A stretch of DNA of 64,000 bases from Candidatus Acidiferrales bacterium (GTDB lineage Bacteria; Acidobacteriota; Terriglobia; Acidiferrales; UBA7541): positions 124,001 through 188,000 of the forward strand of contig DASYYH010000027.1 in assembly GCA_035934015.1 (NCBI GenBank), in the 5' to 3' direction. The first letter of the stretch is position 1. Each line of letters begins with the position of its first letter. The notes beneath the pieces are model-generated. The model had not been told where the DNA came from. It searched no databases and saw only the letters and a program-made list of their open reading frames with translations. Shown one piece after another: positions 5,361 through 17,213 of the stretch. The position numbers and the translations under genes were made by a program.

Positions 5361-5671
5361 TTTTGCATCCTCCGCCGCACACGGATCGCGATTTCTTCCC
5401 TTTCATGCTGCCAGACTTCATCGGCGCGAGTCTAAATCCGATTCGTTATTTTCTGCCGTCGCCAAAGACATTTTGGCTGGTGATGGACATCAAACAAACA
5501 AAGTTTGTCATTCCGCCTGGCCTGAGTGCAGTAGCGAAGGGAACCCGGCCGCTTGCCTTTGACGGACGGTGTGAGGAATCTGCCTTTGCCTTTCCAGCCA
5601 CTTCGCTCTCTCGACGCGAGGCGCTCTGTATGGCAAACTTTCTACTAGCCACTCAGCACGGGGAGCAGACA
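5361..5671. other. Spacer upstream of msrA, holding one dispersed repeat
   Basis: No gene is supported in these 311 bases. The open frame that runs through them into msrA has no ribosome site and no family resemblance in its N-terminal part. The only recognisable content is a reverse-orientation copy of the family A dispersed repeat at 5504-5590. Confidence 0.6.
5504..5590 (-). repeat. Dispersed repeat family A, copy 1
   Basis: On the minus strand it begins with GCAGATTCCTCAC and ends with CGGAATGACAAA, the conserved ends of family A. This is the only copy in the window in the opposite orientation to the others. Confidence 0.7.
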
Positions 5672-10268: not shown

Positions 10269-10370
10269 CGGGCGAATTGCCCGCGCGAAGACATGTTTAC
10301 CACTTTAGAACTAAATTGTCAAGGCAGATATGGGGAACGCCAGAGGCGAGTTGAATCGTCGAGAGTAAAA

Positions 10371-10426
10371 GCGACAGCAGATTCCTCGTCGGATGCTGGT
10401 CGCATCCTCGCTCGGAATGACAAATG
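10371..10426 (+). repeat. Dispersed repeat family A, copy 2
   Basis: Starts with AGCAGATTCCTCGTC, contains a GGATGC/GCATCC hairpin and ends CGGAATGACAAATGG. It is nearly identical to copy 8 at 16790-16846, including the hairpin sequence. Confidence 0.8.
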
Positions 10427-10560
10427 GCGCTGGTGGCGCGAGTTGGAATTAGGGCAAGCGACCGTGTGCGGTCAAAAGTAGACAAATAGGGTCAGAAATA
10501 CACAGGCTGATAGCCCGTGCCACGCGAGCGGGCAACCGTTCGGAATCGTGAGAATGGGCG

Positions 10561-10639
10561 GCAAAGCGGCGTCGAGTTCCGGTTGCGTGTACGGATCGCA
10601 ACCGGAATCCGCGTAGCGGACCGCCGCACTCCGAAAAAG
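10561..10639 (+). repeat. Dispersed repeat family B, copy 1
   Basis: Begins GCAAAGCGGCGTCGAG and ends GCGGACCGCCGCACTCC followed by an A run. The centre holds inverted CCGG arms and a TCCGCG/CGGA hairpin. It shares ends with the copy at 12640-12725 and, like that copy, is followed at once by family A-like sequence. Confidence 0.7.
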
Positions 10640-10721
10640 GCAAAAGCAGATCCCTGCCTGCGGCAGGCAGGCCTCACACCGCTCGCAAACAACACGAGCG
10701 AGTTCGGGATAACAAATTGGG
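10640..10721 (+). repeat. Dispersed repeat family A, copy 3
   Basis: Begins GCAAAAGCAGATCCCTGCC and ends TTCGGGATAACAAATTGGG, with a CTGCCTGC/GCAGGCAG hairpin inside. It stops just before the stop codon of the downstream minus-strand oxidoreductase gene. Confidence 0.7.
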
Positions 10722-10723
10722 AG

Positions 10724-12493
10724 TCATGGGCGAGGTTGGCGCCGGAGGGCGCGGAGGATTTCGCGGGAGGAGTTGAGGGCGGAGGCGGCGGCGAGGGCGA
10801 CGCCGGGATGAGTCCCGGAGCCGCAGAGAAAGAGATTGCGGATGGGAGTGCGATAGCGCGCGAAGCCGAGAAGCGGACGCATGGTGAAGAGCTGGTCGAG
10901 AGCGAGTTCGCCGTGGGAGATGTGGCCGCCGGTGAGGCCGTAGTCGATTTCGAGATCGAGCGGCGTGATGACGCGGCGGGCGAGGATTTTCGAAGGGAGA
11001 TCGGGAGCGTATTCCGCGAGAGTTTTGATGACGGCGTCGGCGAGAGCGTCGCGGAGTGCGGGCCAATTTTTGGGAGAGGCAGCAGAACCAAAAGCAGGTT
11101 CCTCACCGCCGTTCGCCAGCCGCGGGCGACCGGGTTCGGAATGACAATTTGGGGAGGCTTCGCGAGAAGCCGTGCTCGGCGGCTTCACTTTGTAAGGCGC
11201 GTATTGCATGGAGATGGCCATGACGTGCCGCGCCTTCGCGGGCGAAGCTGCTTCGGCGGGCGAGCTTGCCTGAACCAATGATGGATCGAGGAGCGAAGGA
11301 ATGGAGGCATCGAGATACGGCGCGGCGGAGAAATTGCCGTACTTCGAGGCGTCGAAGGCGCGCTCGAGATAATCGATCTCCGGGCCGATGTGGATGCGGC
11401 CGGAGAGCGCGGCGACGGCCTCGGCGGGAGATGAATTTTTGAGCGCAGTGAAATTCGGGAGCGCGTCGAGAGCAAGAAAAACGCGCGCGACAGTTCCCTG
11501 TGCGCGATAGTGCTGCATCTTTACGAGGAAGCTCGGTGCGAGGTGCACGGGCTCGAGCAATTGGAGGAAAGTGCGCTTGGGATCGGCGCCAGAGACGACG
11601 GCGCTGGCGGCGATCTCTTCGCCGTTTTTGAGCAGGACTCCCGCCACCGCGTCATTCTTGACGAGGATGCGAGCGACTTCGGCGTTGGTGCGGATTTCGG
11701 CGCCGGCGCGGATGGCGGCAGCGGCCAGGGCTTCGGAAAGAGCGCCCGCCTGCGCAAAAGAACCCGCCACGGCGGACAGGCCTGAGACGGCGGACGGTTT
11801 GCCATCGGGTAAACCTCCGGCGCCGAGACGCAAAAGCAGAAGCGCGGCAGTTCCCGCTGACCACGGGCCCGCGGCGGTGCCGGAAATTCCGGGCGCGGCG
11901 ATGACGGCGCGAAGAAGTTCCGTCTCGAAAAATTCGGCGGCGAAATCGGCGACGGCCATCGGTCCCCAGCGGAGCAGGCGGCGCATGTTTTTCTTGCCTA
12001 GGCCGCGGAACGTTTTCCCGGTGCGAAGCAAATCCCAAATGGCGGAGGAAGTGAGGGTGTCGACGTCGGGCGGCGTCATGAGGAGGAGATCGCGGATGAG
12101 GCCGGAGGCGCTTTCGAAGATTTGCGCGAGGTCGAGGTAGCTCGCGGCGTCGGATTTGGAGAAGGCTTCGATGTTTTTCGCGGAGCGAGCGGCGTCGGCG
12201 TAGAGGAGAAGAGAGAGCGCGTCGGGCAAGGGAGCGAAAAGGCGGGCGGCGTCGCTCGATTGACGCGCGAGCGGCTGGAGGCGCATGTCGCGGGCGATGC
12301 CGGGAGCGAGCGGACCGGGAGCGTCGAGGACGGAGGCGCGAAAGCCGGGATGAAATTCGAGCGTCGAGGTGGCGCCGCCGACGGCCGAGCGACGTTCGAG
12401 GACGAGAGGTTTGAGGCCAGCGCGGGCGAGATAGAACGCGGCGACGAGAGAATTTTGGCCGGCGCCGATGATGAGGATGTTACGCGTGTTCAT
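10724..12493 (-). CDS. COG1233-type FAD-dependent oxidoreductase (PYROXD2/CrtI-like), with embedded repeat
   Basis: 589 residues. The N-terminus holds the FAD-binding Rossmann motif (IIGAGQNSLVAAFYLARAGL, then VLERRSAVGGA), and a second dinucleotide-family block lies near the C-terminus (NLFLCGSGTHPG). The family is phytoene-dehydrogenase-related (COG1233), close to animal PYROXD2; substrate unknown. It is a diverged paralogue of the gene at 13064-14650. Relative to that paralogue it has about 35 extra residues between QYAPYK and LRDALADAV. This insert contains CHSEPGRPRLANGGEEPAF, an in-frame translation of dispersed repeat family A (bases 11090-11154). The start lacks a clear ribosome site. 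Both flanks are repeat-rich. Confidence 0.85.
   Translation of the reverse strand: MNTRNILIIGAGQNSLVAAFYLARAGLKPLVLERRSAVGGATSTLEFHPGFRASVLDAPGPLAPGIARDMRLQPLARQSSDAARLFAPLPDALSLLLYADAARSAKNIEAFSKSDAASYLDLAQIFESASGLIRDLLLMTPPDVDTLTSSAIWDLLRTGKTFRGLGKKNMRRLLRWGPMAVADFAAEFFETELLRAVIAAPGISGTAAGPWSAGTAALLLLRLGAGGLPDGKPSAVSGLSAVAGSFAQAGALSEALAAAAIRAGAEIRTNAEVARILVKNDAVAGVLLKNGEEIAASAVVSGADPKRTFLQLLEPVHLAPSFLVKMQHYRAQGTVARVFLALDALPNFTALKNSSPAEAVAALSGRIHIGPEIDYLERAFDASKYGNFSAAPYLDASIPSLLDPSLVQASSPAEAASPAKARHVMAISMQYAPYKVKPPSTASREASPNCHSEPGRPRLANGGEEPAFGSAASPKNWPALRDALADAVIKTLAEYAPDLPSKILARRVITPLDLEIDYGLTGGHISHGELALDQLFTMRPLLGFARYRTPIRNLFLCGSGTHPGVALAAASALNSSREILRALRRQPRP
11090..11154 (+). repeat. 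Dispersed repeat family A, copy 4, inside a coding sequence
   Basis: Plus strand starts AAAAGCAGGTTCCTCACC and ends TTCGGAATGACAATTTGGG, the same ends as the intergenic copies. It lies within the oxidoreductase gene on the opposite strand and encodes about residues 447-468 of that protein without breaking the frame. Confidence 0.85.
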
Positions 12494-12584
12494 AAGTAAG
12501 ACGAACCTCAGCGGCTAAAGCCGCCCCAAAAATCATTTGCGTTCTCCGCGAAGCACCGCAACAAATCAAAAACCAAATGCAGCG

Positions 12585-12626
12585 CCGTCCGATGGACGGC
12601 GACGGCCCGATGAAGTCGATCGGGCC
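12585..12626. repeat. Two consecutive perfect hairpins
   Basis: CCGTCC/GGACGG (12585-12599, 3-base loop) is followed by GGCCCGAT/ATCGGGCC (12604-12626, 7-base loop). They belong to the hairpin cluster filling 12494-13063, in which no gene was found. Function unknown. Confidence 0.6.
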
Positions 12627-12639
12627 CTACAACTGCCAA

Positions 12640-12725
12640 GGCAAAGCGGCGTCGAGCTCCGGCTTCGCCTGCCAAGGCAGGCAAGCCGGAGTCCGCGAGG
12701 CGGACCGCCACACTCCAAAAACGCA
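12640..12725 (+). repeat. Dispersed repeat family B, copy 2
   Basis: Starts GGCAAAGCGGCGTCGAGCTC and ends CGGACCGCCACACTCCAAAA. The centre carries GCCTGCC/GGCAGGC and CCGGCTT/AAGCCGG arms. Family A-like sequence (CTGCAGATTCCCGCC) and a GGGGCAAGCCCC hairpin (from about 12773) follow. Confidence 0.7.
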
Positions 12726-12795
12726 AAACCGAACTGCAGATTCCCGCCACGGCGGGCAGGCGCGGGCGGGGCAAGCCCCGCCCCTACGAGAGCGC

Positions 12796-12858
12796 AAGGC
12801 AAAAGCAGGTCCCTCACACCGTCCCGATTTAATGCATCGGGACGGGTTCGGGATGACA
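12796..12858 (+). repeat. Dispersed repeat family A, copy 5
   Basis: Begins AAGGCAAAAGCAGGTCCCTC and ends TTCGGGATGACACC. The internal hairpin is GTCCCGAT/ATCGGGAC. Confidence 0.75.
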
Positions 12859-12870
12859 CCTCTTAACGAT

Positions 12871-12932
12871 AAAGACAGATTCCTCGTCGTCGCGATAAAC
12901 GGCATCGGGACTTTTCGGAATGACAATGTGGG
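12871..12932 (+). repeat. Dispersed repeat family A, copy 6
   Basis: Begins AAAGACAGATTCCTCGTCG and ends TTCGGAATGACAATGTGGG. It follows copy 5 after 12 bases, giving a head-to-tail pair. Confidence 0.75.
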
Positions 12933-13002
12933 AGGTGGAGTCGAACAGGGCGATTGACGAAGCGTCATCGGCATGGCCGCGTTTGGCGAAAGAAAGGCCG
13001 AC

Positions 13003-13050
13003 GAGGCGAGATTCTTCGTCGCCGTGAAACGGCTCCTCAGAATGACAGCG
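13003..13050 (+). repeat. Dispersed repeat family A, copy 7
   Basis: Begins GCGAGATTCTTCGTCG and ends CTCAGAATGACAGCG, with GCCGT/ACGGC arms. It is more diverged than the other copies and stops about 15 bases before the 3' end of the next oxidoreductase gene. Confidence 0.65.
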
Positions 13051-13063
13051 CTGCGAGACGGCA

Positions 13064-14650
13064 TCAGGTAGCCCTCAGGTCGCGGAGGATTTCGAGGGCG
13101 GCGAGGCGGCCGGGCGCGCCCATGATGCCGCCGCCGGGATGAGTAGCGGAGCCGCACATATAGAGATTTTTCACCGGCGTGCGATAACGAGCCCAGCCGG
13201 CGACGGGACGCAGGAAGAAAAGCTGTTCGAGCGAGAGTTCGCCCTGAAAAATGTTTCCTTCGGTGAGGCCGATTTGATCTTCGATGTCCCACGGCGTGAG
13301 GACTTGCTTGCCGATGATTATGTTTTTCAGACTGGGCGCGTATTCGGAGATGGTGTCGATGACGGCGTTGCCGAATTCCTCGCGGCGATTTTCCCACGAG
13401 CCGTTTTTGAGTTTGTAAGGTGCGTATTGCACGAAACAGGAGAGGACGTGCTTGCCGGGAGGTGCGACGGAGGGATCGGTCAGGCTGGGAATAACCATGT
13501 CGATGTAAGGGCGATGGGAAAATTCGCCGTATTTGGCCTGATCGTAGGCGCGCTCCATGTAGTTGACGGAAGGCGAAATGGAAATCGCGCCGCGGAGATG
13601 ATGGCCCGCGCCGGGCAAACATTTGAATTCGGGAAGCGCATCGAGAGCGAGATTCACTTTGCCGGAGGAGCCGCGATATTTGTAGCGCTTCACTTCGTCG
13701 AGGAATTCGGCGGGGAGATCTTTGGAATCCATCATTTTCAGGAATGTGAGATTGGGATCGACGCTGGAGGAAACGATTTTTGCGTGGATTTCTTCGCCGG
13801 ACTGCAACACCACTCCCGAAGCGCGGCCGTTGCGCGTGAGAATTTTGGCTACGGGCGCTTCGGTGCGAATTTCGACGCCGGCTTCACGGGCGGCGTCGGC
13901 GATGGCGTTGGAGATCGCGCCGGTGCCGCCGCGGCTGAATCCCCAAGCGCGGAATGCGCCGTCGATTTCGCCCATGTAATGATGCAGGAGAACGTAAGCG
14001 GTGCCGGGAGAGCGCACGCCGAGAAACGTGCCGATGATTCCGGAGGCGGACATGGTGGCCTTGAGAACATCTGTTTCAAACCACTGATCGAGGAAATCGG
14101 CAGCGGACATGGTCATGAGCTGGACGAGATTGTATTTATCCTCGGCGGGGAGAGATTGGAAGCGGCGGGCGAGAAACATAAGTTTCTTGAGGCCTTTGGG
14201 ATTGAGCGAAGTGGGATCGGGAGGCGTCATGGCGAGAAGCGGTTTGACGAAGCGGCACATCTGAAGCATGGCTTTGCCGAATTCGTCGTAGGCTTCGGCG
14301 TCGAGGCGCGAGTGGCGGACGAGTTCGCGGCGGGTCTTGGCGTGGTCGTTGACGCGCCAGAGATGGTCGCCCGAGGGCATGGGCGTGAAAGTGCCGTCGA
14401 GCGGAAGAATTTCGAGGCCGTGGCGCGGGAGATCGAGATCGCGAATGATTTCCGGGCGCAGAAGCGAAACGACGTAAGAGCAGACGGAGAATTTGAATCC
14501 GGGGATGATTTCTTCGGTGACGGCGGCGCCGCCGAGGACGTAGCGGCGTTCGAGGACGAGGACTTTTTTGCCCGCGCAAGCGAGGTAGGCCGCGTTGGTC
14601 AGGCCGTTGTGGCCTCCGCCGATGATGATGGCGTCGTAGGATTTGGGCAT
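13064..14650 (-). CDS. COG1233-type FAD-dependent oxidoreductase (PYROXD2/CrtI-like)
   Basis: The ATG at 14650 has an AGGA site 7 bases upstream and gives 528 residues; an earlier in-frame ATG at 14665 is less likely. The N-terminal FAD motif is IIGGGHNGLTNAAYLACAG followed by VLERRYVLGGAAVTEE. The C-terminal block is NLYMCGSATHPGGGIMGAPG. No signal peptide. It belongs to the phytoene-dehydrogenase-related family (COG1233), whose PYROXD2-like members have no settled substrate. It is a paralogue of the neighbouring gene at 10724-12493, in the same orientation and separated from it only by repeats, so the two probably arose by tandem duplication. No carotenoid synthase is nearby, which argues against a carotenoid role. 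Confidence 0.88.
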   Translation of the reverse strand: MPKSYDAIIIGGGHNGLTNAAYLACAGKKVLVLERRYVLGGAAVTEEIIPGFKFSVCSYVVSLLRPEIIRDLDLPRHGLEILPLDGTFTPMPSGDHLWRVNDHAKTRRELVRHSRLDAEAYDEFGKAMLQMCRFVKPLLAMTPPDPTSLNPKGLKKLMFLARRFQSLPAEDKYNLVQLMTMSAADFLDQWFETDVLKATMSASGIIGTFLGVRSPGTAYVLLHHYMGEIDGAFRAWGFSRGGTGAISNAIADAAREAGVEIRTEAPVAKILTRNGRASGVVLQSGEEIHAKIVSSSVDPNLTFLKMMDSKDLPAEFLDEVKRYKYRGSSGKVNLALDALPEFKCLPGAGHHLRGAISISPSVNYMERAYDQAKYGEFSHRPYIDMVIPSLTDPSVAPPGKHVLSCFVQYAPYKLKNGSWENRREEFGNAVIDTISEYAPSLKNIIIGKQVLTPWDIEDQIGLTEGNIFQGELSLEQLFFLRPVAGWARYRTPVKNLYMCGSATHPGGGIMGAPGRLAALEILRDLRAT

Positions 14651-14754
14651 GGATTTCCTGTGCACGCGTCAGCGCGCGTGCGACGACGGGCCATTTTACA
14701 GGGGTAGAGTTATCCCGACAAGCGCAGTGGCAGCTACATCGAATTCGTTAATCG

Positions 14755-15087
14755 CTACTCGCGGACGAAGGAAAACACGACTCCAAGACCAAGCAAGATG
14801 AACGGCCAGAAACGAACGGGAATACCAAGCAACGAGTCTTCGAGGGATATCTTAACCTCTTGACCGGTCTCTCTCTCAATAAGTATCCGCTCCCGCCCGC
14901 AACCGAACCACGACCGGAGCGCATAAACCGACACGGCGGCGATGAAAAAACCGACCAGCTTCGGCCAGCCATGGTGTTGGTAATAGCCCTTATCAGTGAA
15001 CATCGATCGCGTCGCTAGGTCGGTCAGAATCAGGCAGCCGAACGCGATGAGCGCGACGAGAAATCCTTTTCCACGCCAGACTAGCAT
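14755..15087 (-). CDS. Small inner-membrane protein of unknown function
   Basis: 110 residues with three hydrophobic segments: GFLVALIAFGCLILTDLA near the N-terminus, LVGFFIAAVSVYAL in the middle and PFILLGLGVVFSF at the C-terminus. The last two are separated by a charged loop of about 35 residues. A GGAG site lies 10 bases before the ATG, supporting translation. I do not recognise the family. It sits between an oxidoreductase gene on the same strand and the divergent gcvT-like gene, with no clear functional link. Confidence 0.6.
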   Translation of the reverse strand: MLVWRGKGFLVALIAFGCLILTDLATRSMFTDKGYYQHHGWPKLVGFFIAAVSVYALRSWFGCGRERILIERETGQEVKISLEDSLLGIPVRFWPFILLGLGVVFSFVRE

Positions 15088-15302
15088 CGAGACAGCTCCT
15101 AATGATCGGCGGCGATTACATTAACAAGAATAAGCTTATGCCGCTAGCTCTGCTAAATGCTGCGACGAAAGTTGTACTCCTGAGCTTCAAGGCGCGGCAC
15201 CTTGATAGACTTGGAAAACGCGAATTATAATTCGCGAACAGTAGGCCGTGCAGTTTGCGGATGATAATTTGGCAAGAAACGCATGGAGAAGGGAGAAAAA
15301 CA

Positions 15303-16505
15303 TTGCCTATTGGGACGGCGGTGCATGAGAGGACGATGAAGCTGTGCGAGAGCCTGAATTACCGCGAATGGTCGGGCTACTACACGGTGAGCGCGTACGA
15401 GACGCATCACGAGCACGAATACAACGCGATACGCAACGCGGCGGCGCTGATTGACGTGACGCCGCTCTACAAATATTGGATTACGGGCGCGGATGCGACG
15501 ACGTTTGTGAACCGCGTGATTACGCGCGACGTGCGGAAAATCGCAGTGGGACAGGTGATTTACTGCTGCTGGTGCGACGAAGAAGGAAAAGTGATCGACG
15601 ACGGGACCGTGTCGCGGCTGGGCGAAAATGTGTACCGGTGGACGGCGGCGGACCCGAGCCTCCGGTGGTTCGAGCAGAATGCGCTGGGGCTGGACGTGAA
15701 GATCGAGGACATTTCCGAGCAGGTGGCGTCGCTGGCGCTGCAAGGGCCGACGTCGGCGCGCGTGCTGCGGCAGGCGAGCGATGCGGATTTGGCGAGCTTG
15801 AAATATTTTCGGGTGACGAGCGCGAAGATCGCCGGCGTGCCGGTGGATATTTCGCGCACGGGATACACGGGCGATTTGGGCTACGAAATCTGGATGCCGT
15901 GGAACGATGCGGTGAAAGTCTGGGACGAGCTTGTGGCGCGCGGGCGGCAATACGATTTGCACGCGGCGGGAATGCTGGCGCTGGACGTGGCGCGAATCGA
16001 GGCAGGGCTGCTGCTGATCGAAGTCGATTACATCAGCAGCAAAAAGGCGCTGATCGAAGCGCAGAAATATTCGCCATACGAAATTGGGCTGGGGCGGATG
16101 GTGGATTTGAACAAGGAGCATTTCGTGGGGCGCGAGGCGCTCGCGGAGGAACAGAAACGCGGGACGAAGCGGCGATTCGTGGGATTGAATATCGACTGGG
16201 ACGAAATCGAAGCGCTTTTCGACGCCGCGGGACTGGCACCGCAAGTGGCGAGCACGGCTTCGCGCGCGGCTGTGCCGGTCTTTGACGCGAGCGGAAGGCA
16301 GATCGGGAAGGCGACTTCGACGACATGGTCGCCAACGCTGAAGCGGATGATTGCGCTCGCGAGCGTGGCGGGCGAATACGCGAAGCCGGGGACGAAGCTG
16401 AAAATGGAATTCACGGTCGAGGCGGTGCGGCATCGCGTCGAGGCCACGGTGGCGGAATTGCCGTTTTTTAATCCGGCGAGAAAGACGGCGAAGCCGGTAC
16501 TCTGA
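15303..16505 (+). CDS. GcvT-family aminomethyltransferase (glycine cleavage T-like)
   Basis: Start taken as the TTG at 15303, which has GGGAG upstream and gives the family-typical opening PIGTAVHERTMKLCESLNY (400 residues); upstream in-frame starts add a tail with no family resemblance. It contains the folate-binding GcvT domain (TRDVRKIAVGQVIYCCWCDE, then RTGYTGDLGYEIW) and the C-terminal barrel domain (KRRFVGLNI to VAELPFFNPAR). Glycine-cleavage T proteins move a methylene group from the lipoyl-bound aminomethyl to tetrahydrofolate. The other gcv genes are absent here, so it may be a stand-alone relative acting on dimethylglycine, sarcosine or another methylamine. A second copy of its last 20 codons lies 200 bases downstream. 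Confidence 0.85.
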   Translation: MPIGTAVHERTMKLCESLNYREWSGYYTVSAYETHHEHEYNAIRNAAALIDVTPLYKYWITGADATTFVNRVITRDVRKIAVGQVIYCCWCDEEGKVIDDGTVSRLGENVYRWTAADPSLRWFEQNALGLDVKIEDISEQVASLALQGPTSARVLRQASDADLASLKYFRVTSAKIAGVPVDISRTGYTGDLGYEIWMPWNDAVKVWDELVARGRQYDLHAAGMLALDVARIEAGLLLIEVDYISSKKALIEAQKYSPYEIGLGRMVDLNKEHFVGREALAEEQKRGTKRRFVGLNIDWDEIEALFDAAGLAPQVASTASRAAVPVFDASGRQIGKATSTTWSPTLKRMIALASVAGEYAKPGTKLKMEFTVEAVRHRVEATVAELPFFNPARKTAKPVL

Positions 16506-16631
16506 CGCTGCGCTGAATGAGTTAGGACGAGCCGTTCGGAACACCGCAGAGATTCTTAGCGAGAGAGTTCCCGGCAGAGATTTGCGCACAAAGCGGCGCA
16601 AAAAGGAAGAAATCGAAAATCACCGGTTTAT

Positions 16632-16687
16632 GCCGGAGCTGAAGCCTGCCTGCCCGCCGCAGCGAGCAGGCAGCAGGCGGCTCCGGC
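16632..16687 (+). repeat. Large hairpin repeat upstream of the gcvT remnant
   Basis: Outer arms GCCGGAGC (16632-16639) and GCTCCGGC (16680-16687) enclose inner arms GCCTGC (16648-16653) and GCAGGC (16666-16671). It resembles other hairpin repeats of this region and lies just before a good AAGGAG motif at 16693-16698. The rest of 16506-16631 shows nothing recognisable. Confidence 0.6.
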
Positions 16688-16701
16688 CCCCTAAGGAGCA
16701 C

Positions 16702-16763
16702 GTGACGGTGGCGGAATTGCCGTTTTTCAATCCGGCGCGAAAGATGGCGATGCCGACGCTGTG
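16702..16763 (+). pseudogene. 3'-terminal fragment of a second gcvT-like gene
   Basis: About 60 bases closely match the last 20 codons and stop of the intact gene at 15303-16505. In frame they read VTVAELPFFNPARKMAMPTL, against ATVAELPFFNPARKTAKPVL in the intact copy. No other part of gcvT is found upstream. The fragment probably remains from a deleted tandem paralogue or a partial duplication. By chance or design a GTG with AAGGAG precedes it, so a 20-residue peptide could be made. The tail end (GCTGTGATTTTT) recurs at about 16875, pointing to further local duplication. Confidence 0.75.
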
Positions 16764-16789
16764 ATTTTTTTCGCGGCTGAAAGAAAAGC

Positions 16790-16846
16790 GCAAAGCAGAT
16801 TCCTCGTCGGATGCTAATCGCATCCTCGCTCGGAATGACAAATTGG
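16790..16846 (+). repeat. Dispersed repeat family A, copy 8
   Basis: Begins CAAAGCAGATTCCTCGTCGG, has the GGATGC/GCATCC hairpin seen in copy 2, and ends CGGAATGACAAATTGGTGG. Confidence 0.8.
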
Positions 16847-16904
16847 TGGCTAACGGGGAAGACGACGGGCGCGGCGCTGTGATTTTTCTCAAGGCCAGAG
16901 AAAA

Positions 16905-16950
16905 AGCAACAGCAGATTCCTGCCTCGGCAGGCGATGCGCGACACCACTG
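16905..16950 (+). repeat. Dispersed repeat family A, partial copy 9
   Basis: Keeps the 5' end (CAACAGCAGATTCCTGCC) with a TGCC/GGCA hairpin. The 3' part is degraded (GACACCACTG in place of GGAATGACA). The remaining spacer to 17213 shows no gene. Confidence 0.55.
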
Positions 16951-17213
16951 TAAGCAGCCAACCTCTGAGGCTGCTCGCGGCGAGCGGCGATTTTGCGGAG
17001 ACATATTCGCTTGACTATCCTGGCGGCATGCGGTATCCGCATCTTCGCGGACGAGCGGGACGGCGGATTATCCTCATAAAATTATCCGGCCGCTCGCCAC
17101 GAGCACGACGATACACGGAATGAGCGTCAACGAACGCACGAAGAAGTAGTTTCGAGGCGGGCCTGCCATTGGGACATGAAATGCTATGGCTGTTTACAAG
17201 CGGAGGCAAACTC

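Follow-up and report, generated by a model that had tools for sequence, protein, structure and literature searches.

That dispersed repeats can be read in frame within bacterial genes is known from MITEs with coding capacity and from the Rickettsia palindromic elements (RPE) (PMC2229807). The RPE were found in frame in unrelated conserved proteins, where they are tolerated (Ogata et al. 2000; reviewed in PMC2229807). MITEs comprise 70-300 bp and resemble degenerate ISs with terminal repeats (PMC3733652). The REPs are a further group. Intragenic REPs of the GTAG and CGTC types are known in many bacteria, the CGTC type has been reported without a dedicated transposase, RPE-4 and RPE-6 end on one side in CGTC, and RAYT-like genes of Acidobacteria are flanked by unrelated terminal repeats (PMC3733652).

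We here describe a fresh case of this known phenomenon: a copy of a dispersed repeat, called family A, within the coding sequence of an oxidoreductase. The window, i.e., the whole stretch of 64,000 nucleotides that was analysed (G000:C27:124001-188000), belongs to an assembly of 3.37 Mb; positions given without a contig or locus name refer to it. The best overall explanation is, with a probability of about 85%, an old in-frame insertion of a REP-like repeat that persists as a tolerated loop, with small GIY-YIG genes as the best-supported source of its mobility. The insertion as such has precedents. That inverted copies of the family bracket small GIY-YIG genes is less expected.

With the RPE, family A shares that it is short, palindromic and mostly intergenic, and that it also occurs in frame in unrelated conserved proteins. 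It differs in phylum and sequence, in the length of its unit (about 35-90 nt versus 105-146) and in its link to GIY-YIG genes. The parallel to Rickettsia, already drawn by the sequence-only reading, holds as an analogy: two conserved proteins of the genome carry in-frame copies that are absent from orthologues, and in the AlphaFold2 prediction the fold is kept, with a loop accommodating the insert. With REPs, REPINs and their RAYTs (REPtrons; PMC3733652, PMC3116915, PMC8266576) family A has in common that short dispersed repeats occur singly and as inverted pairs and bracket one small gene; some copies lie inside ORFs and some supply stop codons. In contrast to REPtrons, it lacks the GTAG tag, and the bracketed gene encodes a GIY-YIG nuclease, not a Y1 (HUH) transposase: inverted copies bracket small nuclease genes, and no Y1/HUH gene of G000 is flanked by the repeat. 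Among 14 copies of family A, no GTAG tetranucleotide is conserved by the palindrome; the invariant ends are GCAG and TGACAA, not CGTC, and an internal CGTC is seen in one subtype only. With these tags absent, a REP of the GTAG or CGTC type is ruled out; family A works like a REP or an RPE, but is not assigned to either. The coding MITEs (ERIC, NEMIS and RU elements; PMC2229807) resemble it in being non-autonomous and fused in frame in genes.

The host gene (10724-12493, minus strand) encodes an FAD-dependent oxidoreductase of 589 residues. Pfam, NCBIfam and fold comparison place it in the CrtI/CrtO (phytoene desaturase / carotene ketolase) superfamily: it matches Pfam DAO/Amino_oxidase, its top family profiles are NCBIfam CrtO and CrtI, both under the curated cut-offs, and the folds nearest to its predicted model are the carotenoid desaturases 4rep and 4dgk. 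Its named relatives are from Acidobacteriota MAGs (Candidatus Acidiferrales and others). A paralogue (13064-14665, minus strand) is 39% identical and has a gap where the host protein carries about 36 additional residues, between QYAPYK and the next helix. The sequence-only reading had counted about 35, which agrees, and had placed them at 11085-11180, which is slightly too narrow; the inserted segment covers 11069-11182 (minus strand) and encodes about 38 residues, ~438-475 (PPSTASREASPNCHSEPGRPRLANGGEEPAFGSAASPK).

The DNA at the insert reads AAAAGCAGGTTCCTCACCGCCGTTCGCCAGCCGCGGGCGACCGGGTTCGGAATGACAA and contains both conserved ends of family A, as had been claimed. The copy itself occupies 11090-11147 on the plus strand (AAAAGCAGGTTCCTC...GGTTCGGAATGACAA) and is translated from the minus strand as NCHSEPGRPRLANGGEEPAF. 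It fits the two-end pattern and a covariance model (C27:135091-135150, 56 bits, E=1.3e-8), this copy being among those that had gone into the model. The reading frame was correctly seen to stay open: the ORF of 589 residues is continuous, and the frame is open in four species. The label "hairpin" is justified in part. The central stem TCGCC...GGCGA is present, yet compared with shuffled controls the coding copy shows no better folding (z 0.18 as RNA, -0.37 as DNA), and a strongly folding mRNA hairpin at the insert is ruled out. Adjoining the repeat, within the inserted segment, a small perfect hairpin, GGCTTC-GCGA-GAAGCC (11156-11171), can be read from the sequence and is paired in the RNA fold; G001, of the same genus, has a similar one. 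Just upstream of the insert the oxidoreductases of G000 and G003 have another local insertion in common, SSPAEAASPAKA, of about 11 residues (11230-11275, residues ~407-420), the DNA of which is rich in inverted repeats.

The comparison of orthologues indicates what was there before. In the orthologues examined outside the genus the sequence is QxAPYxLxxGxW; their loop comprises about 5 residues, and they have no counterpart to residues 438-475. With the site empty in these relatives and in the paralogue, and the segment made of dispersed-repeat sequence, the alignments identify it as an insertion, as the sequence-only reading had proposed; a conserved segment unrelated to the repeat and common to all orthologues was not found. 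A search of 25 outgroup loci revealed no repeats near the oxidoreductase, so that repeats as a general trait of its neighbourhood are ruled out. Within the genus the insert is present at the same site and in frame in all four members that have the orthologue (G000, G001, G003 and G004); G002 has no close orthologue. As judged from these alignments, the insertion is an old one that is shared across the genus and is not peculiar to a strain. With the site occupied in four genomes that were binned separately, it is unlikely to be an artefact of assembly.

The four versions of the insert differ by several indels, all of them multiples of three and none creating a stop codon. Those of G001, G003 and G004 include another palindrome as well, repeat B, which consists of GTCGGAGCTTCAGCTCCGAC and GGGGCTTTAGCCCC and is interrupted in G003. 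Repeat B is itself dispersed in these genomes and is absent at this site in G000. As most orthologues of the genus hold repeat B too, the original insert may have been composite. The centre of the repeat reads GRPRLANGG in G000 and G003 and ARFSRS or AQFSRS in G001 and G004, a difference in sequence that suggests conversion, or else replacement by a different copy. Both flanks have diverged, so that the exact boundaries of the insertion and any target duplication are unreadable.

Family A is not confined to this gene. The two-end pattern yielded 14 copies in the 3.37 Mb genome, the reversed control pattern none. In an alignment of the 14 copies 22 columns are invariant, and each of these belongs to one of the two ends (GCAG-TTCCTC and TCGGAATGACAA), which the collecting pattern itself required; the centre is variable. 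A covariance model built from them gave 44 matches in G000 at E<=0.01. The family was detected in 44 of 61 searched genomes, with most matches in the source genus, two members of which have 82 and 86, but also across the family and the order. Its units, single or paired, are mainly intergenic. In the window, intergenic copies on the plus strand lie at 10374-10426 (subtype GGATGC...GCATCC; C27:134374-134426, 73.7 bits), 12872-12929 (C27:136872-136929, 30.7 bits) and 16792-16844 (C27:140792-140844, 73.4 bits). A relative at 12806-12858 on the same strand (CAGGTCCCTC...TCGGGATGACA) was recognized by motif scan and as an inverted repeat, an arm inverted relative to it being found at 5564-5592. Several copies and relatives cluster in the intergenic DNA around the two oxidoreductase genes (10374-13047). 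Rfam yielded no match in 10300-17000 up to E=1, which rules out that the repeat there belongs to an Rfam family.

One copy of family A supplies the last codons and the stop of a small GIY-YIG ORF (L009:1198-1527), and this led to a test of GIY-YIG loci for flanking repeats. When the top GIY-YIG match of each genome was searched with the model, no more than 2 of 30 loci had the repeat. Many ORFs in that set belonged to other GIY-YIG groups, some at tRNA 3' halves, and the test was therefore redone with a query specific to the class and with less strict repeat ends. The query, run over 151 genomes, collected 30 loci of small single-domain GIY-YIG genes in Acidobacteriota; the class was chosen after the lead had been seen. 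Facing (inverted) family ends were present on both sides of the gene in 22 of the 30 loci and in none of 2092 control windows, and a stricter inverted-repeat test gave 17/30 versus 2/675, a contrast partly inflated by the controls, which are protein-coding neighbourhoods and not matched intergenic DNA. Independent of the choice of controls are the inverted orientation, the short distances and the matched variants. The flanking copies lie at short, similar distances from the gene, both flanks of a locus share variants (L213, for instance, has ATATGC on each side), and the final codons of the ORF and its stop (ADSSLRSE*) often come from the 3' copy. The second GIY-YIG gene of G000 also has family-type sequences on both sides, with a model match directly upstream. 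The nucleases have conserved GIY-YIG-type residues and a median dN/dS of 0.25 over 11 pairs.

Inverted pairs with a short spacer, reminiscent of REPIN doublets, were seen at L238:1318-1421 (G000:C26, upstream of a GIY-YIG gene) and in L212, L217 and L219. Other small GIY-YIG ORFs end directly before a sequence resembling a tRNA 3' half, i.e., T-arm and acceptor stem (L109, L112, L117, L119, L120, L121, L122, L124, L131 and L134, among the loci with 1.5 kb flanks). In L119 the tRNA-like 3' end is found on both sides of the ORF, in inverted orientation. Perhaps these tRNA-associated ORFs represent another type of GIY-YIG element.

A search of the open-licence literature for a link of GIY-YIG genes to REPs, MITEs or dispersed repeats found nothing relevant. 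From sequence comparison, a GIY-YIG-linked, REP-like element is likely the source of the insert. Family A would act in the manner of a REP or REPtron, with mainly intergenic copies and with inverted ones around a small GIY-YIG gene, and the linkage suggests that the nuclease moves the repeat, in place of the RAYT tyrosine transposase of classical REPs. In its full form this proposal envisages a mobile element with a single-domain GIY-YIG nuclease as its sole gene and with the repeat as its non-autonomous partner, i.e., a REPtron-like system without tyrosine transposase that is common in Acidobacteriota and can add peptide loops to host proteins. We would give it even odds.

The insertion might also have occurred as described, with the repeat being spread by a RAYT/IS200-type transposase or by replication slippage and gene conversion, the GIY-YIG genes being passengers in repeat-rich intergenic DNA. 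Mobilisation of REPs by RAYTs is the known model, and Acidobacteria do have RAYT-like (TIRYT) genes (PMC3733652). The exchanged centre of the insert resembles conversion, and the linkage could mean that the nuclease gene rides on the repeat. The only Y1_Tnp gene of G000, however, has no model match at its site and no inverted repeat around it, which rules out, for G000, mobilisation by a RAYT/Y1 transposase, and plain enrichment would not be expected to yield flanks that are inverted, similarly spaced, variant-matched in each locus and often used as the end of the ORF. Spread by such other routes remains a serious candidate, if one of somewhat less than even chance.

A search for further proteins with the repeat disclosed one more case in the same genome. 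A nucleoside hydrolase (PF01156) is split by a second in-frame copy (C16:243114-243175), which is read in a different frame from that in the oxidoreductase (FVIPSESRAP...). This copy is missing at the site in G001, G002 and G004, and G003 retains its right half only. Among the 44 model matches in G000, all of which were classified, these two are inside recognisable proteins; the others are intergenic or in long frames without known domain. The subset of long frames that was scanned for Pfam domains had none; they look like spurious frames, not real proteins. Bacterial coding density is typically near 90%. If this figure applies, two of 44 means a strong depletion of the repeat from genes, and survival in frame is exceptional.

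An AlphaFold2 model of the oxidoreductase, based on 49 sequences, reached a pTM of 0.87. Only two segments have a pLDDT <50, and the larger one, residues 442-473, lies between the strand 423-430 and the helix 477-493. The insert is thus modelled as a disordered loop, with confidence high for the fold around it. The earlier proposal of a tolerated surface loop stands as far as the loop is concerned; its position at the surface is suggested by the disorder alone. Among members of the genus, dN/dS is 0.18-0.29 for the body of the protein and 0.46-0.81 for the insert, the latter from a short and uncertain alignment; by this measure the insert appears to be less constrained than the remainder of the protein. 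That the insert is translated and tolerated is suggested by the open frames, together with selection and modelling, and the model is consistent with an enzyme that would have retained its activity.

The segment could instead be an ordinary lineage-specific loop extension with a selected function of its own, e.g., in binding, its likeness to the repeat being secondary. Its retention, always in frame, by each of the four members of the genus with this gene would fit such a role. Yet its DNA matches a genome-wide repeat over the whole length, its length and centre vary between species, its constraint is relaxed compared to the body, the loop is predicted to be disordered, and the same repeat occurs in an unrelated enzyme in another frame; we consider a function of this kind improbable. 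That the gene is decaying, so that the insert marks a pseudogene and says nothing about tolerance, is hardly credible: the lack of a close orthologue in G002 and further small local insertions in the protein (at 235-244 and in the SPAEAASPAKA stretch) could be taken that way, but the frames are open in four species, the dN/dS of the body is low, the invariant residues of the family are retained and the fold is confident.

The preferred history, an old tolerated insertion, runs as follows. As the comparison shows, a CrtI/CrtO-like oxidoreductase received a REP-like repeat, in frame and at a short loop (QxAPYKLKxGDW), in the common ancestor of the genus. The segment has since been kept open while drifting, its centre apparently exchanged for that of another subtype and repeat B lying beside it in sister species, and it would be translated as a disordered loop which the fold tolerates.

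What the insert offers is a before-and-after series in an environmental (soil) bacterium: empty site, insertion, centre swap and partial erosion. It presents repeats as suppliers of new peptide to old enzymes, a process best known from the obligate intracellular Rickettsia. The linked GIY-YIG genes provide a testable answer to how REP-like families spread without a tyrosine transposase. If the linkage is causal, GIY-YIG proteins that are annotated as plain nucleases would turn into enzymes of mobile elements.
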